Of a DNA stretch of 64,000 nucleotides, positions 7,394 through 33,096 are shown in pieces; within the stretch, counting starts at the first letter, position 1; each line of letters starts with the position of its first letter. Both the position numbers and the translations under genes were made by a program. The notes beneath the pieces are model-generated. The model was not told the DNA's origin. It ran no database searches and was given only the letters and a program-made list of their open reading frames with translations. This DNA comes from Mesorhizobium zhangyense. GTDB lineage: Bacteria > Pseudomonadota > Alphaproteobacteria > Rhizobiales > Rhizobiaceae. Where the stretch lies: assembly GCF_011045115.1 (NCBI RefSeq), contig NZ_JAAKZG010000012.1, positions 1-64,000 of the forward strand, written 5' to 3'.

Positions 7394-8340
7394 TGGCCGC
7401 GCTGCGAGAGCCGGGGGTCCAGCGCAAGGCTGGCGAGGTCTGCAGCGAGGTTGACGAGACCGTAGCCGACGGCTGCGACCAGTCCCGCGCCCATCACCAT
7501 GGGAACGTCTCGCGACAGCATGGACGAGACCAGGAGATCGCCCAGGCCGGGAAAGTTGAAAAGGGTCTCGATCATGATGAAGCCGTCGACGACGGCGGCG
7601 AACTGGAGGGCGGCGAAGGCAACAATAGGGATCGCGGCGTTGCGCGAACCGTTCTCCCGCAGCGCTGCCGAAGCCGTGAGGCCCTTCGTCCGGGCGAAAG
7701 TGATGAAGAAAGCTCCATTGACCTCGCGGACAGTGTCCCGGATCAAGCGGATCGAAAAAGCCGACAGGCCGAGTGCGAGGGTTGCCGCCGGCAGGATGAG
7801 ATGTTCCCACGAGCGAAATCCGGCCGGCGGCAACCAGCGCAGGGAGAGCGCGAAAATCGATATCAGTCCAATGCCCATCAGGAAGCTGGGAAGCGATGCC
7901 ATCGTCACGCAATAGAACGAAGATATTTTGTCCACCCAGCCATGCGGGCGAAGCGCTGCGTAGATCCCGATCGGCAATGCCACCAGATAGGAAGCGAGCC
8001 AGCCGGCGATACCGAGGATGAGCGTGTTCTGCCCTCTGTTCCAGAGCTCGCTCGCGACGGGCTGGCGGGTGACGAGCGACATGCCGAGGTCGCCTGTCGC
8101 GATGCGTTCAATCCATTCGCCATATTGAAGGAGAATAGGGCGGTCCAGTCCTTCTTCCGCGGCAATCTCCCGGGCCTTGCCGACGTTGAGGAACTCACTG
8201 CCACCCCTGGCCTCGGCGATGCGGAGCGCCGTGTCTCCGGGAAGCGTGTGGACGAAAACAAAGCACATCGTGACGAGCGTCAGGGCGACCAGCGCAGTCT
8301 GCGCCAGCCTCCCGACGATCATGTTCGTCCAATGCGTCAT
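7390..8340 (-). CDS. Nik/Opp-type ABC permease, first subunit
   Basis: 316 residues of the DppB/NikB family. The N-terminal helix (LAQTALVALTLVTMCFVFVH) is followed by the family feature LPGDTALRIA and by LDRPILLQYGEWIERIATGDLGMS. Several hydrophobic segments follow, and the EAA-type loop falls near TKGLTASAALRENGSRNAAIP. The start codon overlaps the stop of the binding-protein gene by one base and the stop overlaps the next permease, so the operon is tightly coupled. The substrate is not encoded visibly in the permease; the riboswitch context points to cobalt or a corrinoid-related compound. Confidence 0.92.
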   Translation of the reverse strand: MTHWTNMIVGRLAQTALVALTLVTMCFVFVHTLPGDTALRIAEARGGSEFLNVGKAREIAAEEGLDRPILLQYGEWIERIATGDLGMSLVTRQPVASELWNRGQNTLILGIAGWLASYLVALPIGIYAALRPHGWVDKISSFYCVTMASLPSFLMGIGLISIFALSLRWLPPAGFRSWEHLILPAATLALGLSAFSIRLIRDTVREVNGAFFITFARTKGLTASAALRENGSRNAAIPIVAFAALQFAAVVDGFIMIETLFNFPGLGDLLVSSMLSRDVPMVMGAGLVAAVGYGLVNLAADLASLALDPRLSQRGQ

Positions 8341-9899
8341 CAGGCCTTGAAGCTCAGCCGGTCGAGATAGAGGCGCTGTTCAAAGGGATCGTTGACAAAA
8401 CCATCGACGCGGTCGGAAACTGCGAAAATCTGGCTGTACCAGACGATTGGGATGGCAGGCAGATCCTCCTGAAGGATTTCGGTCAGGCGGCGACGGCTCG
8501 TCGCGCGAACCTTCTCATCCGTTTCACCATAGTAGGCATCGCAGAGCTTATCGAATTCCTCGTTGCGCCAGTTCGTGGCGCCCGTGTCCGACTGGTTGCG
8601 GGAATCCTCCACGACGAACTCGCTGGAAATGACCGCGATTCCGTCGGGTACGATCGCAAGATGGCGCGATGAGAAGCCAATGTCGAGCGTGCCGTTCTGC
8701 TTCGCCTCTACGATGGCGCTGGCTTCGCCGATGCTGATCGCCAGCTCGTAACCGACCGTCTTGAACATTGCCTGGAGTGCGGCGGCGATGACCGGCATCT
8801 CCGGGCGGTTCGGGAAGGTGCGGATGGTACCTGCGAAACGGACGCCATCTTTCGAGCGGATGCCGTCCGGCCCCTTCACCCAGCCTGCATCGTCCAGCAG
8901 GGCCTCGGCGGCGGCCATGTCATAGTCATAGCGAGGGAGGTCGTCGAAGTGCCAGTCCGGCATCACGGGCGGGAAGAGCTGCGTCGCCGCGAGATCGGCA
9001 TTGCGCATGATGGTCTTTGCTATGGCCGTCCGGTCGATCGCGAGGCTCAAGGCGCGGCGTGTGCGAACGTCGGAGAACTGTGGTTTGCCGCAGTCGGGGT
9101 AGAGAGCATGTACGCGGGGATTGATGACTTCATGCACTTGCATGGTACCGGAACTGGCGATCCGCGAGACGCTGGGTGTCGGGATGTTCATGATCACGTC
9201 CGCATCGCCCGCGAGCGCCATGTTGGCGCGGGTCTCGCCATTTGCGACGGCCTCGAATTCGGCCCGCTCCACAACGGGTTTCTCGCCCCAATAGCCGTCA
9301 TGACGCACCAGCGACAAGCGCCGTGGCAACTCGATGGCATCGACCTTGAATGGTCCCGTCGAGATTACCTGGGCGACCTGACCGTCCGGGCCGAACGCGG
9401 CCGGAGCGTAGACGCTGATTGCGTAGTCGCAGAGATATGCCGGCAGCGGTCCGAAAGGCTTTTCGAGATGGAATACGACCTCTTTCCCCTCGGCCGTGAT
9501 CGACGCGATGTGGACTGCCGACAAGCGCCTTGCCTGAGGAAGGAGTGCCTCCATCGAGGCCTTGACTGCCTCGGCGGTGACCGGGGTGCCGTCATGGAAG
9601 ACGATGCCCTCCCGCAACACGAAACGCCATTCTTTGGCATCGTCGGAGGCGGTCCAACTCGCGGCAAGGCAGGGCACGACGCTGCCGTCGGGCTGAAGCG
9701 CAGTCAATCCTTCGGCGATGCTTGCGCGGTTGAGGACGAAGCCGCTCTCGGCGGGTTGAATGCTCTTGAACTCCCAAGGCTGGATCGCGCGAATGCTCTT
9801 CGGTGCGTTTTCCTGTGCTTCAAGCCAACGCGGCGCGGCAAGAAGGGCGGCAAGCGTGCCGCTGCCAAGCAAGACTGTTCTGCGGGAAATATCGGTCAT
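8340..9899 (-). CDS. Family-5 extracellular solute-binding protein with Tat signal
   Basis: 519 residues. The N-terminus carries a twin-arginine signal (ISRRTVLLGSGTLAALLAAP), so export in folded, possibly cofactor-loaded form is likely. The mature part has the SBP_bac_5 pattern: AEGLTALQPDGSVVPCLAASW, a FHDGTPVTAEAVKASMEALL stretch, and RRALSLAIDRTAIAKTIM. Family members bind peptides, nickel, haem or metallophores. Its position behind a cobalamin riboswitch and a methyltransferase, ahead of the two permeases, suggests a ligand tied to B12 supply. The start at 9899 is supported by the signal-peptide position. Confidence 0.9.
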   Translation of the reverse strand: MTDISRRTVLLGSGTLAALLAAPRWLEAQENAPKSIRAIQPWEFKSIQPAESGFVLNRASIAEGLTALQPDGSVVPCLAASWTASDDAKEWRFVLREGIVFHDGTPVTAEAVKASMEALLPQARRLSAVHIASITAEGKEVVFHLEKPFGPLPAYLCDYAISVYAPAAFGPDGQVAQVISTGPFKVDAIELPRRLSLVRHDGYWGEKPVVERAEFEAVANGETRANMALAGDADVIMNIPTPSVSRIASSGTMQVHEVINPRVHALYPDCGKPQFSDVRTRRALSLAIDRTAIAKTIMRNADLAATQLFPPVMPDWHFDDLPRYDYDMAAAEALLDDAGWVKGPDGIRSKDGVRFAGTIRTFPNRPEMPVIAAALQAMFKTVGYELAISIGEASAIVEAKQNGTLDIGFSSRHLAIVPDGIAVISSEFVVEDSRNQSDTGATNWRNEEFDKLCDAYYGETDEKVRATSRRRLTEILQEDLPAIPIVWYSQIFAVSDRVDGFVNDPFEQRLYLDRLSFKA

Positions 9900-9953
9900 G
9901 AAATCCTCTGGATGTGTTCAATGGGGCTCAGGTTTCGGATGGGCGACGTGCAG

Positions 9954-10736
9954 TCATGATGAAGGACCGGCCGAGCGACTGCAGAAGGCCAAGACGGTCG
10001 CGCCACAGCCGGCTGCACGAAGCTGGGACGCCAGGACCCCCTGGAGCGGACCTGTGTGACCGTCGGTGAAGCCGGCGTCGCGCAGCATCCCGGTAAGTCG
10101 GTCTGGGAGCAGTCCTTCCCGGAAATAGAGCTGATCCTGGATCAGGCGGTGCGCGACCGCGTCATAGAGGACTGCGCGCGGTGAGATGCGGTCCCATATC
10201 TTTGCGACCCGAGCCGCTACCTTCGCGACAAGTGCCTGGTGCTGCCAGTTGCCGTCGATGATCACGAGGTGCCCGCCGGGTTTCAGGACACGCAGCCAGT
10301 CGCGGAACGCGTCTTCTGGAGCCAGCAGGGTCCAGACGAGATGCCTGCAGACGACCGCGTCATAGCGCCCGTCCGGAAGCATCGCGTTCTCGGCATCGCC
10401 GAGATAGAACCTGACATCATTGCCATGCTTCCTGCTGGCTCGCTCAATCATCGCCTCGGAAAGATCGAGACCTTCCACCTCGCAACCAAGCGCCCGCAGC
10501 ACGCGTGTGAATTCGCCGGTCCCGCTCGCCAGCTCCAGAACGCGGCCGCCGCCGATACCCTCGGCGCTGTCGCCGATCAACCGTTTCCAGGTCGCCAGTT
10601 CGCGCTTGGAATGGATCCCGTGGGCGGGAGATTGATCGAACGTTTCCGAGCGACGCGACCAGTATTCGCGAATCTGCTCCTTCACATCGAAGTTCGAGCG
10701 CACGTGCGTCGTGTGGAGATATGGAACGTCGTGCAT
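9954..10736 (-). CDS. Class I SAM-dependent methyltransferase in the B12-regulated operon
   Basis: 260 residues. Motif I VLELASGTGEF (residues 66-76) and the acidic motif EVEGLDLSEAMI define the SAM pocket, and ALLPDG-like and VLKPGGHLVIID motifs follow. This is a UbiE/COQ5-like small-molecule methyltransferase fold. The ATG at 10736 was chosen because longer readings in this frame extend back through the riboswitch, which is untranslated. The gene is the first of the operon, 54 bases before the binding protein. The acceptor is unknown. A corrinoid intermediate or a metal-chelating ligand would fit the control by cobalamin, but that is inference. Confidence 0.85.
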   Translation of the reverse strand: MHDVPYLHTTHVRSNFDVKEQIREYWSRRSETFDQSPAHGIHSKRELATWKRLIGDSAEGIGGGRVLELASGTGEFTRVLRALGCEVEGLDLSEAMIERASRKHGNDVRFYLGDAENAMLPDGRYDAVVCRHLVWTLLAPEDAFRDWLRVLKPGGHLVIIDGNWQHQALVAKVAARVAKIWDRISPRAVLYDAVAHRLIQDQLYFREGLLPDRLTGMLRDAGFTDGHTGPLQGVLASQLRAAGCGATVLAFCSRSAGPSS

Positions 10737-10762
10737 GGCGGACCCGGCCGAGCCTTTTACGA

Positions 10763-10825
10763 GCGGGGTGCGCCTGGGACCGCTTCGCCGTGGGAGGCCA
10801 AGCCGAAGCCTCCGAGACACCCCGC
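10763..10825 (-). promoter_or_regulatory. Leader hairpin after the riboswitch (candidate expression platform)
   Basis: On the minus transcript an 8-bp perfect stem GCGGGGTG (10818-10825) pairs with CACCCCGC (10763-10770). Between the arms is a smaller hairpin formed by GGAGGC and GCCTCC. No U tract follows, so control may act on translation of the methyltransferase gene, whose start lies 27 bases further on, rather than by intrinsic termination. Confidence 0.45.
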
Positions 10826-10844
10826 CCGGCGACAGTCCATGGTT

Positions 10845-11008
10845 TCGATGGCAGGTTTCCTGGCTCGCGGAGAATGCCTGACGCCTTCCCGGGATCACCC
10901 AGTGGCATATGTCAGGCTCATACCGCTTACAGTTGCGGGGGCAGCCGCGGCTTTGGACGATACCGTCCACACCGCATTCCCTTTTAACCTCTCGCAAGAG
11001 AGGCACCA
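10845..11008 (-). promoter_or_regulatory. Cobalamin riboswitch
   Basis: On the minus strand the conserved parts occur in the standard order. They are GGTGCC at the 5' end (11007-11002), GGTTAAAAGGGAA, GCTGCCCCCGCAACTGTAAG, CCACTG, GGGAAGGCG, and finally the B12 box AGCCAGGAAACCTGCC near 10865-10850. This is the class-I (btuB-type) adenosylcobalamin aptamer. It lies upstream of the methyltransferase-ABC transporter operon, and such aptamers switch genes off when cobalamin is abundant. It is untranslated, so open frames through it are accidental. Confidence 0.95.
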
Positions 11009-11831
11009 TCAAAGAATGGGTTAGCCAAAGCATCGTCGATACACAAGATATAGGGCTGAAGATTCTGTCGAACGCTGCCTGAAATCGAGTCGCTAATCAT
11101 GAGCAACAAAGTGGCAGCTGTTCGAATGAACCTGGGAGATCGCTAAAAGGCAGTTTTACGGTAGAAGCTGTTCGACAGCGACCAGTTTGGTGCCGACCCC
11201 CAAGCTGCCGGGCGGCAACGCGCCCCGCTCAAGACGCTGATTAGCCGCCGCCTAAACGGCTAGGAGGGGTCGCTTCCTGCCATATTGGCCCTTCACGCGA
11301 AGCGAGACCTAATGAATTGTTCGAACTCGGGACTAGGCCTTACCGTGTGAGTCGCGATGTAATGGCGACAGCCTTCCGGCCAATGCCATCCTTCTAACTC
11401 GTACTCGACGCTGCCGTTTTTTCAACCGCATAAGCGGCACTGAGAAAATCCGTGAAATGTCATCCTTTCCGCCAGGGCTTCAGTTCGATCGAGCGCTGCG
11501 AGGAAAGATGACAGTCCACTCCATGCCGGATTGCAAGCCGGCCAAGGCAGTTCCGATACTTTATCGACGCTCTGCCGCCAAAACCCCTCCCGCCTTGTTT
11601 GGTTCCCCAAAAATTTTCCTCCTGCATAGAAGCAGAACGCGCGGCCGAAGTGCGGTTGATAGTGGAGCGCTTTCGCCTACGGTTTGAGATAGTTAACCTT
11701 TGCTACTTGCTGCTCCAGTCGAATGCTGCAGCGACGGCAGATTTACATGTGAACCGGGGTGAGACCTAGCGTAGATCACTGTAGAAACTTTTCGCCGTCG
11801 ATATCGGTGATTTTGAGAGGATGGGCGGCAG
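11009..11831. other. Long intergenic region without a supported gene
   Basis: About 820 bases between the riboswitch and the end of the LysR gene. Short frames exist (for example 11457-11687 plus and 11422-11610 minus) but have no ribosome site or recognisable domain. The promoter for the riboswitch transcript should fall at about 11020-11080. No tRNA or insertion-sequence end was recognised. Confidence 0.5.
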
Positions 11832-12737
11832 TCATCCACCGCCGCCCATCGTCACGGACATGAAGGCGCGGAAGGTGGCGCCGGCAGGGCCGATGGGCCG
11901 GTTGCGCGACCATGCCAGGCCGACATCCATGCTGGGGATCGGCTCGACGAGGCCGCGAACCTCGATCCGCTGTCCCTCGAGCGACCATGGCCTGTAAACC
12001 ATGTCTGACAGCACGGTAACGCCTATTCCCGCAGCCACCAGGGAGCGCACGGCCTCCACCGAACTTGTCGTCAGAACGGTTTTGGGTGTGAGGCCTGCGT
12101 TGTCCCAATAGCGAGACGCGGTCTTGCGTGCTTCGTCGACGGTCAGCATGATGTAGTCCTCGGCCGCGACATCGGCGAGGGTAATGTCCTTTCGGCCGAG
12201 CAGGTGATGATCGGCTGAAAGCCACAGCCGGCGGTTTGAGCGCATCAGCACTTCCTGGACGAGGTCGTCGGTATGCGCCAGGTTGGAGACCAGCATGACC
12301 GCCATGTCGATCTCCCCCCGCAGCAAGCCCTGCTCGAGCTCCTCTCTCGGAAGCTCGAGCAGCTCGACGTCGATTTGCGGATAGGTTTTGCGAAAACGCG
12401 CATAGTGCCGCGACATGTAGTAGCCGACGACCGTATAGGTCATGCCCAGGCGGAGCTTGCCGGACAGCCCGCTCTTTTCACGCAGCGGGCTCCGCACCGC
12501 GGCGGCGACCGCGCCGGTTATGACCCGCGCATGTTCCAGAAATCGCGACCCCTCCATAGTCAGTCTGACGCCGGTGTGGGTGCGTTCAAAAAGCTTTACC
12601 GCCAGGTCCGCCTCCAGCCCCTTGATGGCGGCGGTGACTGCCGACTGCGAGAGATTCAGCTCGGCCGCCGCGTGGCTGACCTGGCCAGTTTCCGCCGTCG
12701 CAATGAAATAATCGAGTTGTTTCAGTGTGATGGTCAT
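11832..12737 (-). CDS. LysR-family regulator divergent from the pxp operon
   Basis: 301 residues. The N-terminal winged helix is canonical (LDYFIATAETGQVSHAAAEL, then LNLSQSAVTAAIKGLEADL and LFERTHTGVRLT). The C-terminal effector domain begins near residue 90 with GKLRLGMTYTVVGYYM. It is transcribed away from pxpA with a 127-base shared region that contains a perfect inverted repeat at 12759-12782. LysR proteins usually control the divergent operon and themselves in response to a pathway compound. Because the same upstream sequence precedes the molybdenum-hydroxylase operon, I infer that this regulator may control both. Confidence 0.92.
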   Translation of the reverse strand: MTITLKQLDYFIATAETGQVSHAAAELNLSQSAVTAAIKGLEADLAVKLFERTHTGVRLTMEGSRFLEHARVITGAVAAAVRSPLREKSGLSGKLRLGMTYTVVGYYMSRHYARFRKTYPQIDVELLELPREELEQGLLRGEIDMAVMLVSNLAHTDDLVQEVLMRSNRRLWLSADHHLLGRKDITLADVAAEDYIMLTVDEARKTASRYWDNAGLTPKTVLTTSSVEAVRSLVAAGIGVTVLSDMVYRPWSLEGQRIEVRGLVEPIPSMDVGLAWSRNRPIGPAGATFRAFMSVTMGGGG

Positions 12738-12864: not shown

Positions 12865-13587
12865 ATGACTGTCACACTGAACTGTGACATGGGCGAGAGC
12901 TTTGGCCTTTATAAAATGGGCGATGATGCTGGCATGATGCCGCTTATCGACGTAGCCAATGTCGCCTGTGGTTTTCACGCTTCCGACCCGGATCATATCC
13001 AATCGACCGTGCTTCGCGCAAAAGCCAACGGCGTCAAGGTTGGCGCTCATCCAGGCTTGCCCGACCTCCAGGGTTTTGGCCGACGCGAGATGCGCATGAC
13101 GCGCGACGAAGTGAGGAACAGCGTCGTCTACCAGGTGGGAGCGCTCATGGGCTTCCTTAAGGCAGAGGGCGTGGAACTCCACCACATCAAGCCGCATGGC
13201 AGCCTGTATTTCATGGCGACGCAACAGGAAGCCGTTGCGCATGGTGTGTGCGACGCTGCCGAAATCTTCGGTGTGCCGCTCTTCGGCATGACCGGAACCC
13301 TGCACGAGAAGGTCTATCAAGAACGCGGCATTCCATTCGTCGCCGAGTTCTACGCCGATCTGGACTATGACGCTTCCGGCAAGCTCATCGTGACGCGAGT
13401 GCATGACGCCAAGGACCCTGCGGCGATGGCCGAGCGCTGCGTGCGCGCCATCACCGAGGGCAAGGGCACGACGGAAGATGGAGGCGTCTTCCCGGTTCGC
13501 TGCGAAACCATCTGCGTCCATTCCGACACGCCGAATGCCCTCGAAATTGCAAAGGCCGTGCGCGACGCCATCGCGCCCTGGCATTAA
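12865..13587 (+). CDS. pxpA: LamB/YcsF family protein, 5-oxoprolinase subunit A-like
   Basis: 240 residues covering the whole family. The N-terminal NCDMGESFGLYKMGDD, NVACGFHASDP and VGAHPGLPDLQGFGRREM hold the conserved Asp/His/Glu residues, and HHIKPHGSLY and CVHSDTP follow. PxpA, with PxpB and PxpC, makes the ATP-dependent 5-oxoproline (pyroglutamate) amidohydrolase; related proteins may act on other lactams. The start at 12865 fits the family start and the GAGGGG ribosome site; an upstream reading from 12727 would cover the promoter. It leads an operon with BCCP, biotin carboxylase, pxpB and pxpC. A second, divergent paralogue lies at 24386-25105. Confidence 0.92.
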   Translation: MTVTLNCDMGESFGLYKMGDDAGMMPLIDVANVACGFHASDPDHIQSTVLRAKANGVKVGAHPGLPDLQGFGRREMRMTRDEVRNSVVYQVGALMGFLKAEGVELHHIKPHGSLYFMATQQEAVAHGVCDAAEIFGVPLFGMTGTLHEKVYQERGIPFVAEFYADLDYDASGKLIVTRVHDAKDPAAMAERCVRAITEGKGTTEDGGVFPVRCETICVHSDTPNALEIAKAVRDAIAPWH

Positions 13588-13597
13588 AGTCGATCCC

Positions 13598-13621
13598 AGC
13601 CGTCCCTACGGGCGGCTTTTT
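13598..13621 (+). terminator. Intra-operon hairpin terminator after pxpA
   Basis: An 8-bp stem, AGCCGTCC with GGGCGGCT (one G-U pair) and loop CTAC, is followed by four T. It lies between pxpA and the BCCP gene with only about 30 bases to the next start. It probably lowers expression of the downstream carboxylase genes relative to pxpA rather than ending the operon. Confidence 0.65.
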
Positions 13622-13653
13622 ATCAGTTAGTCCGCAGATTTTTGGAGTTCGTT

Positions 13654-13887
13654 ATGGCCCAGATTCTTTCGCCTCTTCCTGGTACCTTCTATCGGAGCCC
13701 TTCACCCGACAAGCCGCCTTACAAGGTTGACGGCGATGCGGTGGCGGCGGGAGACGTCATCGGTCTCATTGAGGTGATGAAGTCGTTCCATGAGGTCACG
13801 GCCGAGGCGTCCGGCACCAACATCCGCTTCCTTGCCGACAACGAGGATCCCGTTATGGCGGGCGCCCCTCTCGCGGACGTCGATTGA
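13654..13887 (+). CDS. Small biotin carboxyl carrier protein
   Basis: 77 residues, consisting of only the biotinyl/lipoyl domain. The biotin attachment motif is IEVMKSF with Lys43, and the flanking GDVIG and GAPLADVD segments are typical of the hammerhead fold. It lacks the long N-terminal part of classical AccB, so it is probably a dedicated carrier. The ATG at 13654 was preferred to an upstream one at 13642 because MAQILSPLPG matches the usual domain start. The stop overlaps the biotin carboxylase start. Its likely partner is that carboxylase together with the PxpB/PxpC pair. Confidence 0.88.
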   Translation: MAQILSPLPGTFYRSPSPDKPPYKVDGDAVAAGDVIGLIEVMKSFHEVTAEASGTNIRFLADNEDPVMAGAPLADVD

Positions 13888-15251
13888 TGCTGAAGAAACT
13901 TCTGATTGCCAACCGGGGCGAGATAGCAGTCAGGATCATCCGCGCCGCGCAGGATCTGGGTATCGCCACCGTGGCGGTGCATTCAGCGGCCGACACTGAG
14001 TCGCTGCATGTCCAACTGGCCGACGAGGCCGTCGACATTGGCCCGCCGGCGGCGAAGAAGTCCTATCTGAACATCGACGCGCTTTTGAAGGCGGCCCGTG
14101 ATACCGGCTGTGACAGCGTTCACCCCGGCTATGGGTTCCTCGCTGAAAATGCTGCGTTTTCCGATGCAGTCACTGCTGCCGGACTGGTCTTCGTCGGTCC
14201 ATCCGGGGAGGCGATCCGCCTGATGGGCGACAAGGTATCCGCGCGTTCGGCAGCAGCAGCCGCCCATGTTCCGGTGGTGCCGGGCTCAACGGGCCGGGTA
14301 GAGGGCATCGAGGCAGCCCGCGAGGTGCTGATTGACACTGGCTTTCCGGTGATGATCAAGGCTGCCGCAGGTGGCGGCGGGCGGGGAATCCGCATCGCCA
14401 ACTCGCTGGCCGAATTCGAGCAAGCCTTTCCGCAGGCCGAGGCCGAAGCGCTCGCAGCCTTCGGCGACGGTGGGCTCTATATGGAAAAGGTCATCGGCAA
14501 GGCCCGCCATATCGAGGTTCAGGTGCTGGCGGACGGAAAAGACGCCATTCACTGCTACGAGCGCGAGTGCTCGCTGCAGCGGCGGCGGCAGAAGGTGTGG
14601 GAAGAGGCGCCGTCACGCGCTTTGCCTGATCGGGTGCGGCAAGAGCTCTGCGCTTCGGCGGTCGCGCTGGCAAAGGCCGTCGGCTATTCCGGCGCGGGCA
14701 CGGTGGAATATCTTTACGACGACGAAGCCGACCGCTTCTACTTCATCGAGATGAACACCCGCATTCAGGTGGAGCATCCGGTCACCGAGGCGATCACTGG
14801 CATCGATCTCGTTGCCGAGATGCTGCGCATCGCCGGCGGCGAGAAGCTGCGGCTTCGCCAGGGCGATGTTTTGGTCAGGGGACATGCGATCGAGGTGCGG
14901 CTCAATGCCGAGGATCCCGCGAGGGATTTTGCACCGTTCCCCGGCCAGGTCGGCGAGCTTCGCATACCGGGCGGTCCCGGCGTGCGCTTCGATTCCATGC
15001 TCTATCAGGGCTATCAGGTGCCGCCCTTCTACGACTCGCTGCTCGCCAAGCTGATCGTTCACGCCGAGACGCGGGAGGCCGCGATCACCCGTCTTGCCCG
15101 CGCGCTTCGCGAGCTGAAGATCGGTGGCCTCAAGACAACCAAGCCGCTCTTTCTCGCGCTTGCCGCCGACCCGTCGGTGCAGGCCGGGGAGGTGCATACA
15201 CGCTGGCTGGAAGGCTGGCTCACCGAAAACGCTGCAGCATTGGCAGACTGA
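13887..15251 (+). CDS. Biotin carboxylase subunit
   Basis: 454 residues with the full biotin carboxylase layout. The N-terminal domain is KKLLIANRGEIAVRIIRAAQ. The ATP-grasp has the glycine-rich loop KAAAGGGGRGIR, the segment HIEVQVLADG, and ECSLQRRRQKVWEEAPS. The active-site FYFIEMNTRIQVEHPVTE follows, and then the C-terminal domain. It should carboxylate the biotin on the small carrier using ATP and bicarbonate. Its length equals AccC, but no AccA/AccD-type carboxyltransferase is nearby; the likely carboxyltransferase here is PxpB/PxpC, whose relatives are the carboxyltransferase domain of urea carboxylase. It starts at ATG 13887, overlapping the carrier stop. Confidence 0.92.
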   Translation: MLKKLLIANRGEIAVRIIRAAQDLGIATVAVHSAADTESLHVQLADEAVDIGPPAAKKSYLNIDALLKAARDTGCDSVHPGYGFLAENAAFSDAVTAAGLVFVGPSGEAIRLMGDKVSARSAAAAAHVPVVPGSTGRVEGIEAAREVLIDTGFPVMIKAAAGGGGRGIRIANSLAEFEQAFPQAEAEALAAFGDGGLYMEKVIGKARHIEVQVLADGKDAIHCYERECSLQRRRQKVWEEAPSRALPDRVRQELCASAVALAKAVGYSGAGTVEYLYDDEADRFYFIEMNTRIQVEHPVTEAITGIDLVAEMLRIAGGEKLRLRQGDVLVRGHAIEVRLNAEDPARDFAPFPGQVGELRIPGGPGVRFDSMLYQGYQVPPFYDSLLAKLIVHAETREAAITRLARALRELKIGGLKTTKPLFLALAADPSVQAGEVHTRWLEGWLTENAAALAD

Positions 15252-15261
15252 AAGGAGACCG

Positions 15262-16137
15262 ATGTCGATACGTTTCAACTTCGGCGGTGACGAACACATC
15301 TTCGGCGAAGTGTCCGAGGAGATGTCGCTGGCCTCTTTCTTCACCGGCCTTTCAATGACCAACGCGGTGCGCGCTGCCAACATCAAAGGTGTGACGGAAA
15401 TCTGCCCGGCGAATGCCAGTTTTCAGATACGGTTCAATCCGGACCTGCTCGCACCGCAGGACCTGCTCGCCGAGCTCCAGTCGATGGAAGAGGCAGCTTC
15501 CAAGGCAGATCCGGTGCTGAAGACCCGGATCATCGAACTGCCGGTTTATTTCCAGGATCCGTGGACGCATGAAACCTGCCTGCGCTTCCGCGAGCGTCAT
15601 CAGGATCCCTCGTCCACCGATCTCGAATATTCGGCTCGTATCAATGGCTATGCCACGGTGGAGGAGTTTATCGCAGCCTATTCCGGCCAGCCCTGGTTCG
15701 TCTCTATGGTCGGTTTTGTCGCCGGCTTGCCTTTCCTGTACCAGATGGTCGAGCGCCAAAAGCAGATTCAGGCGCCGAAATATCTGCGCCCGCGCACCGA
15801 CACACCGAAGCTCACCATTGGTCATGGCGGGTGCTTTGCGGCGATCTATTCGGTGCGAGGGGCGGGCGGCTACCAGATGTACGGAGTGACCCCGGCCCCT
15901 ATCTACGATCCGGCCAGGAAGGTGCGCTACCTCTCCGACGAGATGTGCCTGTTCAAGCCGGGCGATATCGTCAAGTTCAAGTCCATAAGTCGCGACGAAT
16001 ATGACGCCACGTTTGAGGAGATCGAAGCGAACCGATGGCAGCCAACGGTGCGCGAATGCACCTTCAGCCTCACCGACTTCAATCGCGATATCTACGGCAC
16101 CAACGCAAAGCTTATGGAGCTTATCAATGGCCGTTAA
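15262..16137 (+). CDS. pxpB: PxpB/KipI-type protein (allophanate hydrolase subunit 1 family)
   Basis: 291 residues. The core shows the AHS1/KipI pattern: IIELPVYFQDPWTHE, DLEYSARINGYATVEEFIAAY, MVGFVAGLPFLYQM, and TIGHGGCFAAIYSVRGAGGYQMYGVTP near the C-terminus. It carries an N-terminal extension relative to short KipI (about 230 residues). AAGGAG lies seven bases before the ATG 15262. Relatives form the 5-oxoprolinase complex with PxpC and PxpA, and also half of the carboxyltransferase domain of urea carboxylase. Its stop overlaps the pxpC start by 11 bases. Confidence 0.88.
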   Translation: MSIRFNFGGDEHIFGEVSEEMSLASFFTGLSMTNAVRAANIKGVTEICPANASFQIRFNPDLLAPQDLLAELQSMEEAASKADPVLKTRIIELPVYFQDPWTHETCLRFRERHQDPSSTDLEYSARINGYATVEEFIAAYSGQPWFVSMVGFVAGLPFLYQMVERQKQIQAPKYLRPRTDTPKLTIGHGGCFAAIYSVRGAGGYQMYGVTPAPIYDPARKVRYLSDEMCLFKPGDIVKFKSISRDEYDATFEEIEANRWQPTVRECTFSLTDFNRDIYGTNAKLMELINGR

Positions 16138-17098
16138 GGTAATCTCCCCTGGCCTCTCCACCTCTGTGCAGGACCTTGGCCGCCCGGGCCACTACCATGT
16201 CGGCATCCCCGAAGGCGGCGGCATGGACCGCTTCGCCACCCGTATCGCCAACCTGCTTGTCGGCAACGATCCTGGTGCGGCCCTGCTTGAAGCCACCTTC
16301 ATGGGGCCAGAACTCGAGTTCACGCAGGCTGTAACTGTCGCGGTCACCGGCGGTGAGCTGCCGCCCAAGCTCAATGGCGAGGAACGGTCGACCTGGGAAA
16401 GCTTTCCGGTGAAGGCGGGCGACCGGCTTTCCTTTGGCTACCTGAAGGGTGGCGCGCGCGCTTACATCGCCGTTTCCGGCGGCATTGACGTACCCTTGGC
16501 CCTCGGCTCGCGCTCCACCTACATTCTGGGCGCGCTTGGCGGCCATGAGGGCCGCACGCTGAAGGCAGGCGACGAGCTTCCCATCGGCCAGGGCTCCGGG
16601 AGAGCCGGTCGTTCGCTGCCTGCAAACCTGCGCCGTGCGCAAAGCGCTCCGTCGGAACTGAGGATGCTTCCCGGCATCTACTGGCACCGGATCACCGAGG
16701 CCGCCGGCAAGCGGTTCTTCGAGGAAACATGGAAGGTTGCGCCGGAGGCTGACCGCATCGGTTATCGTTTCCGTGGCGGCACGCCACTGGAATTCATCGA
16801 GCGCGAGCAACCCTTCGGTGCTGGCTCCGATCCGTCGAACATCGTCGACGCCTGCTATCCCTATGGTTCGGTCCAGGTGCCGAGCGGGACCGAACCGATC
16901 GTTCTTCATCGCGACGCAGTTTCCGGTGGCGGCTACATGATGGTGGGTGTGGTGATATCGGCCGACATGGATCTGATAGCCCAGCTCCAGCCGCACACGC
17001 CGGCCCGGTTTGTTCCCGTGACGCTGGAGGAGGCGCTGGTAGCTCGAGTGGAAGGCAACGCCGCATTGGCTCGCGCTGAAGAGTATCTGGCCGGTTGA
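16127..17098 (+). CDS. pxpC: PxpC/KipA-type protein (allophanate hydrolase subunit 2 family)
   Basis: 323 residues. The N-terminus GLSTSVQDLGRPGHYHVGIP, then GGGMDRFATRIANLLVGND and LLEATFMGPELEF, are diagnostic of the AHS2/KipA family. The later YIAVSGGIDVPLALGSRST and the C-terminal PIVLHRDAVSGGGYMMVGVV agree. It starts at ATG 16127, inside the end of pxpB, so the two are co-translated as expected for a complex. Together with PxpB it would form the catalytic or carboxyltransferase body. Of the pxp genes this is the last; 251 bases without a gene follow before the transporter. Confidence 0.9.
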   Translation: MAVKVISPGLSTSVQDLGRPGHYHVGIPEGGGMDRFATRIANLLVGNDPGAALLEATFMGPELEFTQAVTVAVTGGELPPKLNGEERSTWESFPVKAGDRLSFGYLKGGARAYIAVSGGIDVPLALGSRSTYILGALGGHEGRTLKAGDELPIGQGSGRAGRSLPANLRRAQSAPSELRMLPGIYWHRITEAAGKRFFEETWKVAPEADRIGYRFRGGTPLEFIEREQPFGAGSDPSNIVDACYPYGSVQVPSGTEPIVLHRDAVSGGGYMMVGVVISADMDLIAQLQPHTPARFVPVTLEEALVARVEGNAALARAEEYLAG

Positions 17099-17349: not shown

Positions 17350-18102
17350 ATGAGTCATCTGAGCGCGGAGAACGTCTCGGTGGCGTTTGCGGGGCTAAAA
17401 GCCCTGTCGGCTGTCGACCTCCAAATCATGCCGGGCCGCATCAGCGGCCTCATCGGTCCGAACGGCGCGGGCAAAACCACACTCGTCAATGTGCTGACGG
17501 GCTTCCAGACACCAACGGAAGGCGCCGTGAAGCTCGACGGAGAAGCGCTGACGGGCCTCAAGCCACACTTGGTCAGGCGGCGCGGCATTGCGCGAACCTT
17601 CCAGGGCGGCCGGCTTTTCCGCGACCTGCCGGTGGTGGACAACCTCGAAGTGACGGGCGTGGGGCTCGGCATGAGCCGCCGCGCGGCCATTGCAGAGGCG
17701 GAAGCGATGCTTGACTGGATCGGCATCGCCTCGCTGGGCTCGCGTATCGCGGGAACCTTGCCCTATACGGACGAGCGACGGGTGGCCATCGGCCGCGCCC
17801 TTATGGGCCGCCCCGCCTACATCCTGCTCGACGAACCTGCTGCCGGCATGAGCGGACCAGAATCGAAGGAGCTTTCCGCACTCATCCGCCGCATCGCCAC
17901 CGACCTCGGATGCGGCGTTCTGCTCATCGAGCACAATGTCGGGCTCGTGCTCGGCCTTTGCGAGCATATCGTCGTGCTCGATTCCGGAGCCATCATCGAG
18001 GAAGGCTCCCCAGTGTCGATTCGCGGCAGCGAGAAGGTGCGACACGCCTATATGGGCACGACCGCGGATGCCGACCTGCCGGTGCTGGAGGTGATGGAAT
18101 GA
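17350..18102 (+). CDS. livG: Liv-type ABC transporter ATPase (LivG-like)
   Basis: 250 residues. Walker A is GPNGAGKTT (near residues 37-45), the LivG-specific insert RRRGIARTFQGGRLF follows, and Walker B is ILLDEPAAGM. The signature region reads LPYTDERRVAIGRAL instead of LSGGQ, a variation seen in some LivG proteins. The C-terminal tail is typical of the HAAT family. AAGGAAAGG precedes the ATG. It is the first of five transporter genes downstream of the pxp genes and overlaps livF by four bases. Confidence 0.93.
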   Translation: MSHLSAENVSVAFAGLKALSAVDLQIMPGRISGLIGPNGAGKTTLVNVLTGFQTPTEGAVKLDGEALTGLKPHLVRRRGIARTFQGGRLFRDLPVVDNLEVTGVGLGMSRRAAIAEAEAMLDWIGIASLGSRIAGTLPYTDERRVAIGRALMGRPAYILLDEPAAGMSGPESKELSALIRRIATDLGCGVLLIEHNVGLVLGLCEHIVVLDSGAIIEEGSPVSIRGSEKVRHAYMGTTADADLPVLEVME

Positions 18103-18833
18103 GCCTTCTTGCCCTTTCCGATATCACCATTCGCTACAGCAGACTCACAGCAGTCCGTGATGTTTCCTTCTCGATGGCCGAGGGAGAAATCCTGTTCATC
18201 ACCGGCCCGAACGGAGCCGGAAAATCGTCGCTTCTGCGAGCGATCGCCGGGGTCACGCCGGTAGCGGGCGGGCGGATCGACCTTGCCGGCCAGGAAATCA
18301 CCAGCCAGGCGCCGGAGAACATCGCCCGCCTCGGCTTTTCCATGGTGCCGGAGGGACGCGAGGTCTTCGGCTCTCTGACTATCGAGGAAAATCTTCTGAT
18401 CGGCACCGGCATGCACGCCAACAATCGCGGCTGGCGTACGCGTGCAGCGAGCGAGCTGGAAGCCGTCTACGCAACCTTCCCGATGTTGAAGGAGCGGCGG
18501 AATGGACAGGCGGGACTGCTTTCGGGCGGCCAGCAGCAGATGCTGGTGATCGGACGCGCGCTGATGACCAATCCGAAGCTGATCGCCATCGATGAGCCTT
18601 CGCTTGGCCTTGCTCCCAACATCACCGACCAGGTCTACGAGCGGCTGATCGTGCTGCGCGCCCAACGCGGGCTCACGCTCCTCATCGTCGAACAGAGTTC
18701 GGCTCGCGCGATGATGGTGGGCGGGCGGATGATCCTGATGCGGGGTGGTCAGATCGTACTCGACGGCGACGCCCGCACGCTGGGCAATGGCGAGGCGATA
18801 CAGGCTGCCTATTTCGGCTACGAGGACCACTGA
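18099..18833 (+). CDS. livF: Liv-type ABC transporter ATPase (LivF-like)
   Basis: 244 residues. Walker A is GPNGAGKSS, the Q-loop part is GFSMVPEGREVFGSLT as in LivF, the signature is LLSGGQQQM and Walker B is LIAIDEPSLGLAP. All catalytic motifs are intact, so this half can hydrolyse ATP even if LivG is weaker. The ATG at 18099 overlaps the livG stop, and the permease gene starts one base after its stop codon. Confidence 0.94.
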   Translation: MSLLALSDITIRYSRLTAVRDVSFSMAEGEILFITGPNGAGKSSLLRAIAGVTPVAGGRIDLAGQEITSQAPENIARLGFSMVPEGREVFGSLTIEENLLIGTGMHANNRGWRTRAASELEAVYATFPMLKERRNGQAGLLSGGQQQMLVIGRALMTNPKLIAIDEPSLGLAPNITDQVYERLIVLRAQRGLTLLIVEQSSARAMMVGGRMILMRGGQIVLDGDARTLGNGEAIQAAYFGYEDH

Positions 18834-18834
18834 G

Positions 18835-19740
18835 ATGCTTCAGATCCTGTTCGACGCGCTCTCGCTCGGTTCGCTGTATGCGCTCGGCGCACTCGGCATT
18901 GCCCTCATCTTCGGCGTCATGCGGCTCGTGAACTTCGCCCATGGCGACGTCATCGCCTTCTGCGTCTTCGCCCTGCTGTGGCCGTCCACGGACGCAATGG
19001 CCATCGTCTTTGCCGGTCAATTGCCATGGTACCTGCTGGTACCCTTCGTTCTCCTGTGCGGGGCGGGTCTGTCGGTGCTTTGCGAAATCGTCGTCTTTCG
19101 CAGGTTCCGAAAGGCAAATCCGGCGACGATGATGATCACCTCTTTCGCGCTTGGCTTCGTCATCCGCTACTTCCTGCTGATGCTTTACAGCAGCCGGCCG
19201 AAATCCATTTCATTGCTGCCGACACTTTCCCAACCGGTCGAAATCTTCGGCGCCCGGCTTCCGCTCCTGCAACTGATAACGATCATCGCCACCATGGCCA
19301 TACTGATCGGCCTGACGCTGTTCCTGCGCCAGACACGCTTTGGTCTGGAAATGCGGGCGGCGGCGGAAAACTTCTCGATGGCGCGCATGCTCGGCGTTCG
19401 CGCCAATCGGGTGATCATGGGCGCGTTCGCGTTGTCGGGCGCACTTGCCGGGGCCATAGCCCTGATCTTCGGCAGCCAGACGGGCACTGCCGATATCCAG
19501 ATGGGCGCCTCGATCATGTTGATGGCCTTTATCGCCACCGTCATCGGTGGCCTGGGCAGCCTTGGAGGAGCGGTACTTGCCGGCTTCCTGCTCGGCGCGG
19601 CTTCGGTGGTGATGCAGGTGATGCTGCCCGTCGACGCCCGGCCTTTCCGCGACGCCTTCGTCTATGGCGCCGTCATCCTCGTGCTTCTCTTCCGTCCTCA
19701 GGGACTTATTGCCGCCCGCGGCACCAAGGAAAGGGTCTGA
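18835..19740 (+). CDS. livH: Liv-type ABC permease (LivH-like)
   Basis: 301 residues, about eight hydrophobic helices. The start LQILFDALSLGSLYALGALG, then GVMRLVNFAHGDVIAF, is the LivH signature, and MRAAAENFSMARMLGVRANR is the cytoplasmic loop contacting the ATPases. FIATVIGGLGSLGGAVLAGF is the conserved C-terminal part. The ATG 18835 sits directly after the livF stop. The family imports branched-chain amino acids, amides, urea and other small polar compounds. Confidence 0.94.
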   Translation: MLQILFDALSLGSLYALGALGIALIFGVMRLVNFAHGDVIAFCVFALLWPSTDAMAIVFAGQLPWYLLVPFVLLCGAGLSVLCEIVVFRRFRKANPATMMITSFALGFVIRYFLLMLYSSRPKSISLLPTLSQPVEIFGARLPLLQLITIIATMAILIGLTLFLRQTRFGLEMRAAAENFSMARMLGVRANRVIMGAFALSGALAGAIALIFGSQTGTADIQMGASIMLMAFIATVIGGLGSLGGAVLAGFLLGAASVVMQVMLPVDARPFRDAFVYGAVILVLLFRPQGLIAARGTKERV

Positions 19741-19743
19741 ACC

Positions 19744-20826
19744 ATGTCCGCAGTGGTATCGGAAACTCCGCTTGCCGGCGTTGTCAAAGCCGCTAAAAAG
19801 CCGGCGCGTTTCTCGCTGGCGCGCCGCACGATCATAACTCCGATCCTGCTCTCGCTTCTGCTGATCGCCATCACTCTGATCACCGTGATGACGGGGTCGC
19901 GCCCCTTCAACCAGACGGTGATCGACGTTCTTGTCCGCGTCATCTTCGTCGTGGGGCTCTACATCTTCATCGGCAATTCGGGAGTGCTCAGCTTCGGGCA
20001 TGTCGGCTTCGCCTGCCTTGGTGCCTATGCCACCGCCTGGCTCACCATCAATCCCATCATGAAAAGCAGCGCCTTGCCGGGGCTGCCCGAATGGCTGCTG
20101 CAGACGCGGCTTCCTTATTGGGAGGCAGCGGTTCTTGCCGCGCTTTTTGCCGGCGTAGCGGCGTTGATATTCGGCAGGGTGTTGATGCGGCTTTCAGGCA
20201 TCGCCGCGTCGATCGCCACCTTTGCCGTGCTGGCGATGATCAACACCATCTATTCCAACTGGGACAGCGTTACGGGCGGAACCTCGTCGGTCGTCGGCAT
20301 TCCCATCATCCGCACGATCTGGCCATATCTGATCGGTGCCGTCGTCGCCATCTTCATTGCCTGGGCACATGCCATTTCGCGTTCCGGCCTCGCGCTGCGT
20401 GCGGCACGGGACGAACCCATCGCGGCCTCGGCGTCGGGCGTTGACATCCCCAAGGAACGCCTCGTGGCCTTTGTGGTTTCGGGCGCGGTGATGGGTTTGG
20501 GCGGCGCGCTCATGGCGCACTCAATCGGTGTCGTCACACCCGACACCTTCTATCTCAGCCTGACATTCACAACCCTCTCCATGCTGGTCGTCGGTGGCAT
20601 GGGCAGTCTCTCAGGCGGAGTGATCGGCGTCGTGCTTCTGTCCGCCCTCATCCAGGCGCTGCGCTGGCTGGAGGCGGGCGTGCCGATCGGCGAGTCCACT
20701 TTCGCAATGCCGAAGGGGCTTCAGGAAATCGCCCTCGGCATCATCATGATCGTGATCCTTGCGCTTCGCCCATCCGGCCTCATGGGCAATCGCGAAGTCA
20801 CCTTACCCCGCAGAAACCGTGGCTAA
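19744..20826 (+). CDS. livM: Liv-type ABC permease (LivM-like)
   Basis: 360 residues. A basic N-terminal tail of about 28 residues precedes the first helix. IFIGNSGVLSFGHVGFACLG and the loop LRAARDEPIAASASGVDIPK are diagnostic of LivM, and VVGGMGSLSGGVIGVVLL closes the permease core. It starts three bases after the livH stop. It forms the heterodimeric channel with LivH. Confidence 0.94.
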   Translation: MSAVVSETPLAGVVKAAKKPARFSLARRTIITPILLSLLLIAITLITVMTGSRPFNQTVIDVLVRVIFVVGLYIFIGNSGVLSFGHVGFACLGAYATAWLTINPIMKSSALPGLPEWLLQTRLPYWEAAVLAALFAGVAALIFGRVLMRLSGIAASIATFAVLAMINTIYSNWDSVTGGTSSVVGIPIIRTIWPYLIGAVVAIFIAWAHAISRSGLALRAARDEPIAASASGVDIPKERLVAFVVSGAVMGLGGALMAHSIGVVTPDTFYLSLTFTTLSMLVVGGMGSLSGGVIGVVLLSALIQALRWLEAGVPIGESTFAMPKGLQEIALGIIMIVILALRPSGLMGNREVTLPRRNRG

Positions 20827-20869
20827 CCGGCGGCAGGAAGCCGACCGGAGATCAACAAGGAGATGTCCA

Positions 20870-22063
20870 ATGGCGTACAAAATGAGAATTGCGATGACAG
20901 CTTTGGCTGTGTTGTCGGTGGCGTACCCCGCACTGGCCGATGACGACAAGATCGTTGTCGGTTTCGCCACGGCGGAATCGGGCTTCATGGAAGCCTATGA
21001 CAAACCCGCCCAGGAAGCGGCCATGATCCGCATCCAGGAGATCAACGCGGCGGGCGGTCTGCTCGGCAAGCAGATTGAGGTGGTCAAGGCCGATACCAAG
21101 TCCGACCGTGCCGAAGGCGCCAAGGCGGGTCTTTCGGTGCTCGACGGGGGTGCGGACCTTGTCGTCGTCTCGTGCGACTACGACTTCGGCTCCCCAGCTG
21201 CGCTAGCCGCCGAGGATGCAGGCCAGGTCTCATTCTTCCTGTGCGCGGAATCGATCAAGGCCGGTATTCAGGGCGTTGGCCCGCACAGCTTCTCAGCTTC
21301 GGTACTGGCACCGGTTCAGGGCGCGACCATGGCCGAGTGGGCCTTCAAGGAGAAGGGTGCAAAGGATTTCTACCGTCTGCTCGACACCTGGACGGTGTAC
21401 AACAAGGGTATCTGTGACGGCTTCGACTGGATGATGCCCAAGCTCGAGGCCCAGGGTGCAAAGCTTGTCGGTGAAGACACCTTCAAGAACGAAGACGCGT
21501 CCATCGCAGCCCAGATCACCCGCATCAAGTCCCTGCCGAAGGAGCCGGATGCGATCATGCTATGCACCATGATGCCGGGCGCCGTCTCGGCCATCAAGCA
21601 GCTTCGCGCCGCCGGTATCAACTCGATGATCCTCAACGGCTCGGGCGTGGATGGCAGCTATTGGCTTTCGGCGGTGCCGGATCTGTCGAACTTCTTCGTC
21701 CCTGTTCAGGGCTCTATCTATGGTGACGATCCGAGCGTCGACGTCAACAAGTTCAATGCCACCTATAAGGAAAAGACCGGTGCCGATCCGTCGAGCCAGT
21801 ACGTCTATCCCGGTTACGTCATGATTGACGTCTGGGCCAAGGCGGTTGAACGCGCAGGCACTACAAAGGCTGATGCGGTCGTGGCGGAACTGGAAAAGAT
21901 GAAGGACGAGCCGACGCTGTTTGGTACCCGCACCTTCACGCCAGAGCTGCATCACCAGAACAAGGCGCGCTATCTGATCGTGGAAACCAAGGCCGGCAAG
22001 CCTGGCGTCGTCGGTAATTGGACGATCTCCGAGCCGGTCCCGATGGAAGCCCTGCTGAAGTAA
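20870..22063 (+). CDS. Liv-type periplasmic binding protein
   Basis: 397 residues with a cleavable signal peptide (MRIAMTALAVLSVAYPALA, cut near residue 23). The mature protein begins DDDKIVVGFATAESGFM, in the type-1 periplasmic fold (Peripla_BP_6). AAGGAG at 20857-20862 gives strong support for the ATG at 20870. The ligand-contact stretches VVSCDYDFGSPAALAAEDAG and FFLCAESI are Cys-rich for this family and unlike classical leucine-binding protein, so the ligand is probably not a branched-chain amino acid. The gene ends the plus-strand operon and is followed by a strong terminator. Confidence 0.92.
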   Translation: MAYKMRIAMTALAVLSVAYPALADDDKIVVGFATAESGFMEAYDKPAQEAAMIRIQEINAAGGLLGKQIEVVKADTKSDRAEGAKAGLSVLDGGADLVVVSCDYDFGSPAALAAEDAGQVSFFLCAESIKAGIQGVGPHSFSASVLAPVQGATMAEWAFKEKGAKDFYRLLDTWTVYNKGICDGFDWMMPKLEAQGAKLVGEDTFKNEDASIAAQITRIKSLPKEPDAIMLCTMMPGAVSAIKQLRAAGINSMILNGSGVDGSYWLSAVPDLSNFFVPVQGSIYGDDPSVDVNKFNATYKEKTGADPSSQYVYPGYVMIDVWAKAVERAGTTKADAVVAELEKMKDEPTLFGTRTFTPELHHQNKARYLIVETKAGKPGVVGNWTISEPVPMEALLK

Positions 22064-24385: not shown

Positions 24386-25105
24386 TCAGGAATGCGTGTC
24401 GATGACCCGCCGCATCAGCGCGGCGACATCGCGCGCGTTGGGCGGATCGGAGTGAATGCATGCCGTGCCGAAGGATATCGGGCGGACCTTGTTGTCCGTC
24501 GTCACCAGTTCGTTGCGGGTGAGCGCACGCGACATGCGGTCTTCGGCGAGCTTTAAATCGATGGCCGACTGGACGCGGGGAATGATCAAGCTGCCGTCCG
24601 GCGCATAGGTGAGGTCGGGGAAGAATTCGCCGATGAACTCCACGCCGAGTGCCTGGGCCGCCGTCTCGTGACAGGTTCCCGCCATGCCGAAAAGCGGTAC
24701 GCCAAACGGCTTGACGGCTGCGGCAATGGCACGGGCGGTGTCCATGTCGCGCGCGGCCATGCCGTAGACGATGCCATGCGGCTTCACGTGGCTGAGTTGA
24801 CCGCCCTCGGCGACCAGCATCCCTGTCAGAGCGCCAATCTGGTAGAGGAAGGCCGCGGTCAGTTCTTCCGGCTGCAGTTTCATTTCGCGCCGGCCAAACC
24901 CCTCGCGATCCGGAAGGGAAGGGTGCGCGCCGACATTCTTGCCATGCGACAGCGCCAGCCGGACCGTCTTCAGCATCGTCCATGGGTCGGAGGCGTGGAA
25001 GCCACAGGCGATATTGGCGCAGTCGATATATGGCATGATGCCGGTGTCGTCGCCGAAGCGCCAGTTGCCGTAACTTTCGCCCATGTCGCAGTTCAGGGTG
25101 ACCAT
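24386..25105 (-). CDS. pxpA: Second LamB/YcsF family protein
   Basis: 239 residues with the same landmarks as the first paralogue: NCDMGESYGNWRFGDD, NIACGFHASDP, VGAHPSLPDREGFGRREM, HVKPHGIVYG and CIHSDPP. The two copies differ throughout, so this is an old paralogue rather than a recent duplication. No PxpB/PxpC partner is encoded in this operon, so it must share those of the plus-strand operon or work with HyuAB or alone. It starts 12 bases after the molybdenum-hydroxylase large-subunit stop. Confidence 0.9.
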   Translation of the reverse strand: MVTLNCDMGESYGNWRFGDDTGIMPYIDCANIACGFHASDPWTMLKTVRLALSHGKNVGAHPSLPDREGFGRREMKLQPEELTAAFLYQIGALTGMLVAEGGQLSHVKPHGIVYGMAARDMDTARAIAAAVKPFGVPLFGMAGTCHETAAQALGVEFIGEFFPDLTYAPDGSLIIPRVQSAIDLKLAEDRMSRALTRNELVTTDNKVRPISFGTACIHSDPPNARDVAALMRRVIDTHS

Positions 25106-30946: not shown

Positions 30947-30949
30947 GTC

Positions 30950-32977: not shown

Positions 32978-33096
32978 AACGTTTCCTTCGCAGGCTTGAA
33001 TGGTTTCGGGCATGACCCGTCAGTCGCCGCCCCAGCGGGAGCGGCGTCAGGAAAAATCAGTCGGGAAAGCGGCTAGAGCATCGGACGATGCGTGGT

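Follow-up and report, generated by a model that had tools for sequence, protein, structure and literature searches.

On balance, the five-gene operon at positions 12865 to 17098 of the DNA analyzed here appears to encode a biotin-dependent carboxylase of four subunits, whose acceptor would be the nitrogen of a lactam or another amide, and a PxpA-like hydrolase of the LamB/YcsF family that would then open the carboxylated compound. The DNA is a 64,000-nucleotide stretch (the window) of Mesorhizobium zhangyense, positions 1 to 64,000 of contig NZ_JAAKZG010000012.1. All five genes lie on the forward strand. They encode a PxpA-like LamB/YcsF protein, the proposed hydrolase for the carboxylated substrate (12865-13587); a 77-residue biotin carboxyl carrier protein (BCCP; 13654-13887); a biotin carboxylase subunit (BC; 13887-15251); and two carboxyltransferase (CT) proteins, one of 291 residues with subdomains C and D (C/D; 15262-16137; annotated pxpB) and one of 323 residues with subdomains A and B (A/B; 16127-17098; annotated pxpC). 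A preliminary description of this DNA had given the order as pxpA, BCCP, BC, pxpB, and pxpC. The order, the coordinates, and the length of the carrier were all confirmed, but the names PxpB and PxpC were not borne out because the cut-offs of the corresponding equivalog models were missed.

The genes are tightly spaced from that for BCCP through that for A/B. The ATG start of the BC gene overlaps the BCCP stop codon (TGATG), with a TTG at 13884 as an alternative BC start, and the A/B gene overlaps the C/D gene by 11 nucleotides. All five products scored above the cut-offs of the expected Pfam families: LamB_YcsF (PF03746; 298 bits), Biotin_lipoyl (PF00364), Biotin_carb_N/CPSase_L_D2/Biotin_carb_C, CT_C_D, and CT_A_B. 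The components of a biotin-dependent carboxylase are therefore all present as judged from their sequences: a BC domain with the catalytic motif IEMNTRIQVEH, a BCCP (NF005457, 116.4 bits versus a cut-off of 87) in which Lys43 of the motif EVMKSF would be expected to carry biotin, and the CT partner genes. The LamB/YcsF protein exceeded the cut-offs of two PxpA-subfamily models (NF003814, 274.1 versus 226 bits; NF003816, 224.3 versus 213 bits), and in the same NCBIfam scan it reached none of the PxpA equivalogs NF003812, NF003813, and NF003815. The genome has one CT_C_D gene, hence no second CT pair, along with six BC domains and two LamB/YcsF genes, both inside the window. The nearest named relatives of the C/D protein are from Mesorhizobium (92 to 93% identity). 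A terminator-like hairpin followed by a T run lies at 13598-13617 (forward strand) between the pxpA-like and BCCP genes and might be an attenuator, although such patterns in the region were not above the shuffled expectation (2 found versus 4.1 expected).

Judged by sequence, the CT pair is of the urea carboxylase type and not canonical PxpBC. The C/D chain scored 64.5 bits against the PxpB model TIGR00370 (cut-off, 145.55), and the A/B chain scored 215.7 bits against the PxpC model NF045499 (cut-off, 500). The A/B chain did pass TIGR00724 (263.7 versus 230.2 bits), a domain model for the '5-oxoprolinase/urea amidolyase family' that cannot separate PxpC from urea carboxylase. Against the urea carboxylase model TIGR02712, the C/D and A/B chains scored 98.9 and 221.9 bits in the NCBIfam scan. 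A genome-wide search with the same model gave 520.1 bits for the operon BC, 222.1 for A/B, and 100.1 for C/D. The best match was a BC on another contig (568.8 bits), and no match in the genome reached the whole-protein cut-off of 1303.85 bits.

The distribution of such CT pairs was examined in 240 loci plus the window. Searches with PF02682 gave matches in 76 of 289 genomes of a class sample and in at least 122 of 249 genomes of an order sample. The matches were of three kinds: fused urea carboxylases in long frames, window-like frames of roughly 300 residues, and short PxpB proteins. The loci comprised 100 stretches picked by frame length and score irrespective of their neighbors, short loci, and 80 loci (L173-L252) retrieved by similarity to the window protein. 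The last are redundant, and a 'diverse' subset of 35 window-type loci from the class and order samples is reported apart. Sixty loci (L013-L072) with about 1.5 kb of flank were counted for residues only. We designated loci with BC and CT in a single frame as urea carboxylases and those with RTDTP in the C/D motif as window type (K1). The labels K2 and R were assigned by the Lys or Arg residue discussed below, which makes residue figures of '100%' for these two groups circular, and tree rows are used in their place.

In trees of 133 A/B and 133 C/D domains, which were quick searches without bootstrap and with long-branch warnings, one clade of 91 rows was recovered for both CT halves with a Shimodaira-Hasegawa-like approximate likelihood ratio (SH-aLRT) of 99; the other 42 rows fell outside it. 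The clade holds 18 urea carboxylases, 71 Lys-type pairs, and 2 Leu-type pairs, and 59 of the 71 Lys-type pairs, including three from haloarchaea, are in the window's own clade. The relationship to the CT halves of urea carboxylase that the preliminary description had proposed is thus upheld in both trees, as well as by a shared active-site residue. In Kluyveromyces lactis urea amidolyase (KlUA), the residue that serves the CT reaction as general base is 'most likely' Lys1605, and the K1605A variant has a kcat 0.095 of that of the wild type (PMC5770610). In our alignment Lys173 of the C/D chain pairs with this residue (chain numbering plus 593), and the equivalent position is Arg in the KipI, YbgJ, and Mycobacterium smegmatis chains. 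Within the clade the site was Lys in 89 of 91 rows and Leu in 2; outside it, all 42 rows had Arg. Among all 242 C/D domains there were 152 with Lys, 88 with Arg, and 2 with Leu, and those with Lys comprised every urea carboxylase (18/18), every window-type domain as defined by motif (121/121), and 13 others. Further sites common to urea carboxylases and the window type, and not to the Arg type, include Tyr174, Tyr204, and Gln205 of C/D and Asp241 of A/B. A plain PxpABC system was rejected on the missed equivalog cut-offs, the placement with urea carboxylase, and the Lys/Arg site.

The association of the five genes is beyond chance on the evidence of gene order, because 101 of the 109 window-type loci, including 33 of the 35 in the diverse subset, share the order PxpA, BCCP, BC, C/D, A/B. 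That these parts belong together, as had been supposed, is supported accordingly. BCCP is present in all 109 loci, and the biotinyl-Lys site is kept in all 125 BCCP domains of Lys-type loci. Three haloarchaeal window-type loci have other gene orders. With urea carboxylases set apart and a flank of at least 4 kb, a BC gene within 5.5 kb accompanied 111 of 121 Lys-type C/D domains versus 4 of 26 Arg-type domains. BC and BCCP are thus not consistently separated from this CT type; it was consistent separation that the preliminary description had named as refuting its proposal. Three of the ten Lys-type exceptions lacking BC are window-type loci that retain BCCP, two from Vibrio and one from a haloarchaeon. 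In the Vibrio loci (L242 and L247) the order is PxpA, BCCP, C/D, A/B, and the 16.8 kb examined revealed no BC gene; since the carrier persists after the loss of its BC, that subunit might be provided in trans. Two genomes have several split urea carboxylase-like CT pairs, some without their own BC (G196, loci L075, L083, L086, and L097; G081, loci L076, L077, L088, and L089), and these pairs may share one BC-BCCP.

When a flank of at least 5 kb was available, the proportion of loci with a PxpA-like gene within 5.5 kb was 106 of 108 for the Lys type with BC and 4 of 8 for the Lys type without BC, 19 of 22 for the Arg type without BC and 3 of 3 for the Arg type with BC, 0 of 1 for the Leu type, and 0 of 16 for urea carboxylases. 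The biotin transporter BioY (PF02632) was encoded in 19 loci, always on the same strand; relative to the C/D gene it was no more than 3 kb downstream in 15 loci, 4.1 kb upstream in three, and 6.7 kb downstream in one. Where the flank sufficed, BioY accompanied 17 of 111 Lys-type loci with BC versus 0 of 55 others (22 Arg-type without BC, 4 Arg-type with BC, 18 urea carboxylase, 10 Lys-type without BC, and 1 Leu-type). On the tree the presence of BioY switches 11 times. The neighbor screen was not designed with BioY in mind, but a transporter for biotin is to be expected beside an enzyme that uses this cofactor.

The BC and BCCP seem to have a different ancestry from the CT pair. In a BC tree, also a quick search without bootstrap, the window-type BC groups apart from urea carboxylase BC and beside an AccC-like BC encoded on another contig of the same genome (C1), with an SH-aLRT of only 93. 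The latter BC has a BCCP-like match alongside, away from the operon, and the two are taken as accC-accB. A BC motif also distinguishes them: RRRQK in 115 of 117 window-type frames and RRQQK in 2, versus RRHQK in the C1 BC. Approximately unbiased (AU) tests, for which the groups were named after the first tree had been inspected, rejected a single BC clade of window type, K2, and urea carboxylase (p-AU, 0.0034), as well as a clade of window-type and urea carboxylase BCs against the genome's own BCs (P, 0.0042). The idea that every part descends from a urea carboxylase that was split is therefore rejected for BC, which seems from these trees to have been recruited from AccC-like stock. The BCCP's matches in the Protein Data Bank (PDB) are all AccB. 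The claim that the operon encodes all the parts of a urea carboxylase consequently stands by function but not by descent. Four of the five K2 BCs and the haloarchaeal BCs are placed elsewhere on the tree, and the fifth K2 BC is within the window type. These separate positions, together with the rejected one-clade hypothesis, suggest that one CT clade took BC partners from more than one source.

Comparison of structure models with urea carboxylase was informative for one of the two CT chains. The best PDB match of the C/D AlphaFold model (mean predicted local distance difference test [pLDDT] score, 89.2) was K. lactis urea carboxylase, with a template modeling (TM) score of 0.81 to 0.82, versus 0.58 for YbgJ. 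The aligned span of the model was 277 residues for urea carboxylase (Z score, 25.6), 206 for Thermus TTHA0988 (Z score, 20.7), and 200 for YbgJ (Z score, 18.5). The A/B model (mean pLDDT, 81.9) does not discriminate because YbgK and urea carboxylase match it equally (TM score, 0.85); it has low-confidence loops, and that of residues 231 to 242 contains the conserved Asp241. A CT pair of this fold has been seen on a biotin carboxylase complex before: in PDB entry 9yx5 (2025), MSMEG_0435-MSMEG_0436 sits with AccA3 in a mycobacterial complex.

These observations suggest the following route. BC would carboxylate biotin on BCCP at the expense of ATP and bicarbonate. If it works as urea carboxylase does, the CT pair would next transfer the carboxyl group to an amide nitrogen, in a lactam or some other amide, with Lys173 of C/D as the base. 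The PxpA-like protein would hydrolyze the N-carboxylated, activated compound, and the resulting carbamate would release CO2. The net result would be an ATP-driven opening of a lactam or amide in which bicarbonate is recycled. The carboxylase machinery itself is likely, provided that the four subunits assemble and the carrier is biotinylated. A lactam substrate, suggested by the presence of a LamB/YcsF hydrolase instead of allophanate hydrolase, is plausible, as is ring opening by the PxpA-like protein. A more specific proposal, in which we have somewhat less than even confidence, is a biotin-dependent lactamase that transiently N-carboxylates its substrate from carboxybiotin and hydrolyzes it with PxpA, so that CO2 acts as a recycled catalyst, with BC recruited repeatedly under one CT from Proteobacteria to haloarchaea.

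Several points weigh against an N-carboxylating enzyme. PxpA is said, from work by Niehaus in 2017, to function with PxpBC without any BC, so a PxpA homologue alone is no pointer to carboxylation. The Lys, clade, and linkage patterns are clade-level correlations: the Lys/Arg state switches just twice on the tree, and a paired test, across independent branches, of whether Lys goes with BC linkage carries no weight because it has only two pairs and no power. Both BC and BCCP are missing from the surrounding 5.5 kb of seven Lys-type C/D domains that are not of the window type. Conversely, BC is near four of the Arg-type loci with enough flank, and the pair with AccA3 in 9yx5 is of the Arg type, which indicates that Arg does not exclude biotin use. 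Transporters and neighboring genes vary across lineages and so indicate no single substrate. Four loci (L109, L160, L163, and L170) have Arg-type CT pairs adjoining BC and BCCP. They are near the base of the clade of urea carboxylase and Lys-type pairs in the A/B tree, and in the C/D tree two of them are among other Arg-type domains; they could represent a transitional state or another group linked to biotin.

A divergent gene at 11832-12737 (reverse strand), which we take to encode a LysR-type regulator, is the probable regulator of the operon; 89 of the 109 window-type loci and 22 of the 35 diverse loci have a homologous gene. Upstream of it are genes for a family 5 solute-binding protein and a methyltransferase (8340-11033, reverse strand). 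On the other side of the operon, Pfam and NCBIfam matches identify an ABC importer of the LIV/urea type, with two ATPases, two permeases, and a binding protein (17350-22063, forward strand), which probably serves substrate uptake. LIV-type permeases of this kind are found in 44 of 109 window-type loci but only 3 of the 35 diverse loci. Farther along is a HyuA/HyuB pair (28979-33013, reverse strand) whose nearest NCBIfam models are those of caprolactamase CapA/CapB, at 525 and 297 bits, far below the cut-off of 1000. Genes for HyuA or HyuB are near 11 of the 35 diverse loci. In the window, the HyuA/HyuB pair is adjoined by genes for a molybdenum hydroxylase, a class III aminotransferase, and a second LamB/YcsF protein (24386-25105, reverse strand). 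The second LamB/YcsF gene has no CT pair of its own, and its product might share the CT of the operon. These neighbors would be in keeping with a pathway that degrades an N-heterocycle and yields an amino acid. A search for the substrate pathway among the neighbors of window-type loci yielded no single pathway. In 13 loci a 479-residue frame follows just downstream of the operon (for example, L234:9835-11271), with no Pfam match to an E value of 1e-6 and no NCBIfam match to 1e-20.

One possibility is that the same biotin-dependent carboxylase acts on an open-chain, urea-like compound or amide (urea, guanidine, or an acylurea), with PxpA replacing allophanate hydrolase. The shared CT clade would agree with this, as would an importer like the LIV/Urt transporters, though it scored below the Urt cut-offs. 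We consider such an acceptor unlikely, given that a PxpA-like gene is near nearly all Lys-type loci with BC versus no urea carboxylase locus, that nothing in the genome passes the urea carboxylase cut-off, and that CT positions are fixed differently in the window type and urea carboxylases (for example, Ala52 versus Arg and Ala201 versus Pro in C/D, and Tyr185 versus His, Val265 versus Pro, and Gly267 versus Leu in A/B). It is more doubtful still that the operon encodes a biotin-dependent 5-oxoprolinase, with the net reaction of PxpABC and carboxylation as its activating step. The two systems have a PxpA homologue and the CT fold in common, and the genome has no other CT pair. However, at least 10 of 40 window-type genomes also list a canonical-class match of at least 176 bits (the class rests on the inspected residue in two and on score in the other eight), which argues that the two are not simple substitutes, and the neighbors suggest the catabolism of some other lactam or N-heterocycle. 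That BC and BCCP are spare acetyl-CoA carboxylase subunits beside an ordinary ATP-dependent PxpABC is highly improbable: NCBIfam labels both 'acetyl-CoA carboxylase' (above the cut-offs of NF005457, NF009471, and NF006367) and the BC is closest to AccC-like BCs, but TIGR00514 (614.3 versus 626.5 bits) and TIGR00531 (62.8 versus 115.2 bits) were missed, and chance paralogues were rejected on the conserved gene order, the BC motif, the presumed accC-accB on C1, and the location of all five Carboxyl_trans (PF01039) genes of the genome on other contigs. The last result, with no PF01039 match on the window's contig (C4), also agrees with the earlier statement that the operon has no AccA or AccD.

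The operon is real, widespread, and probably misnamed. NCBIfam assigns its parts to 'acetyl-CoA carboxylase' and '5-oxoprolinase', two probably mistaken labels that would conceal a single widespread enzyme. One paper includes the operon, which it calls a urea carboxylase/allophanate hydrolase cluster, and a 2011 publication states that none of the split urea carboxylase-like CT genes had been studied (PMC3199775). The role of these genes now becomes testable. If the reading proposed here is correct, an N-carboxylating enzyme would be added beside urea carboxylase, the clade and the residue would be available for telling it from 5-oxoprolinase, and stable amides could be opened in a process driven by ATP and bicarbonate.

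Among known systems, urea carboxylase (TIGR02712; KlUC, 3va7; KlUA, 5i8i) resembles the operon in its CT clade, the active-site Lys, the A/B and C/D subdomains, and the possession of BC and BCCP; both also have the C-terminal part of C/D that YbgJ is without. In contrast to urea carboxylase, the operon specifies four separate chains with an AccC-like BC, an AccB-matching BCCP, a LamB/YcsF partner, and several CT positions fixed otherwise. The PxpABC 5-oxoprolinase (TIGR00370 and NF045499; YbgJ-YbgK, 5dud) likewise combines a LamB/YcsF protein with homologues of both CT halves, but its canonical form carries Arg where the operon has Lys, its C/D chain is shorter, and BC is mostly absent from its surroundings, and the operon pair falls below its PxpB and PxpC cut-offs. 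The M. smegmatis long-chain acyl-CoA carboxylase with MSMEG_0435-MSMEG_0436 (9yx5) joins a CT_A_B/CT_C_D pair to the biotin carboxylase subunit AccA3. It differs in that its C/D chain is of the Arg type by alignment and that its partner is AccA3, which is common to several mycobacterial carboxylases (PMC11001197). Caprolactamase CapAB and OplAH-type lactamases belong to the Hydantoinase_A/B families, which none of the five operon proteins matched in Pfam; their likeness to the proposed enzyme would be in ATP-dependent lactam opening, which for CapAB is reported to require bicarbonate (PMC8453981).

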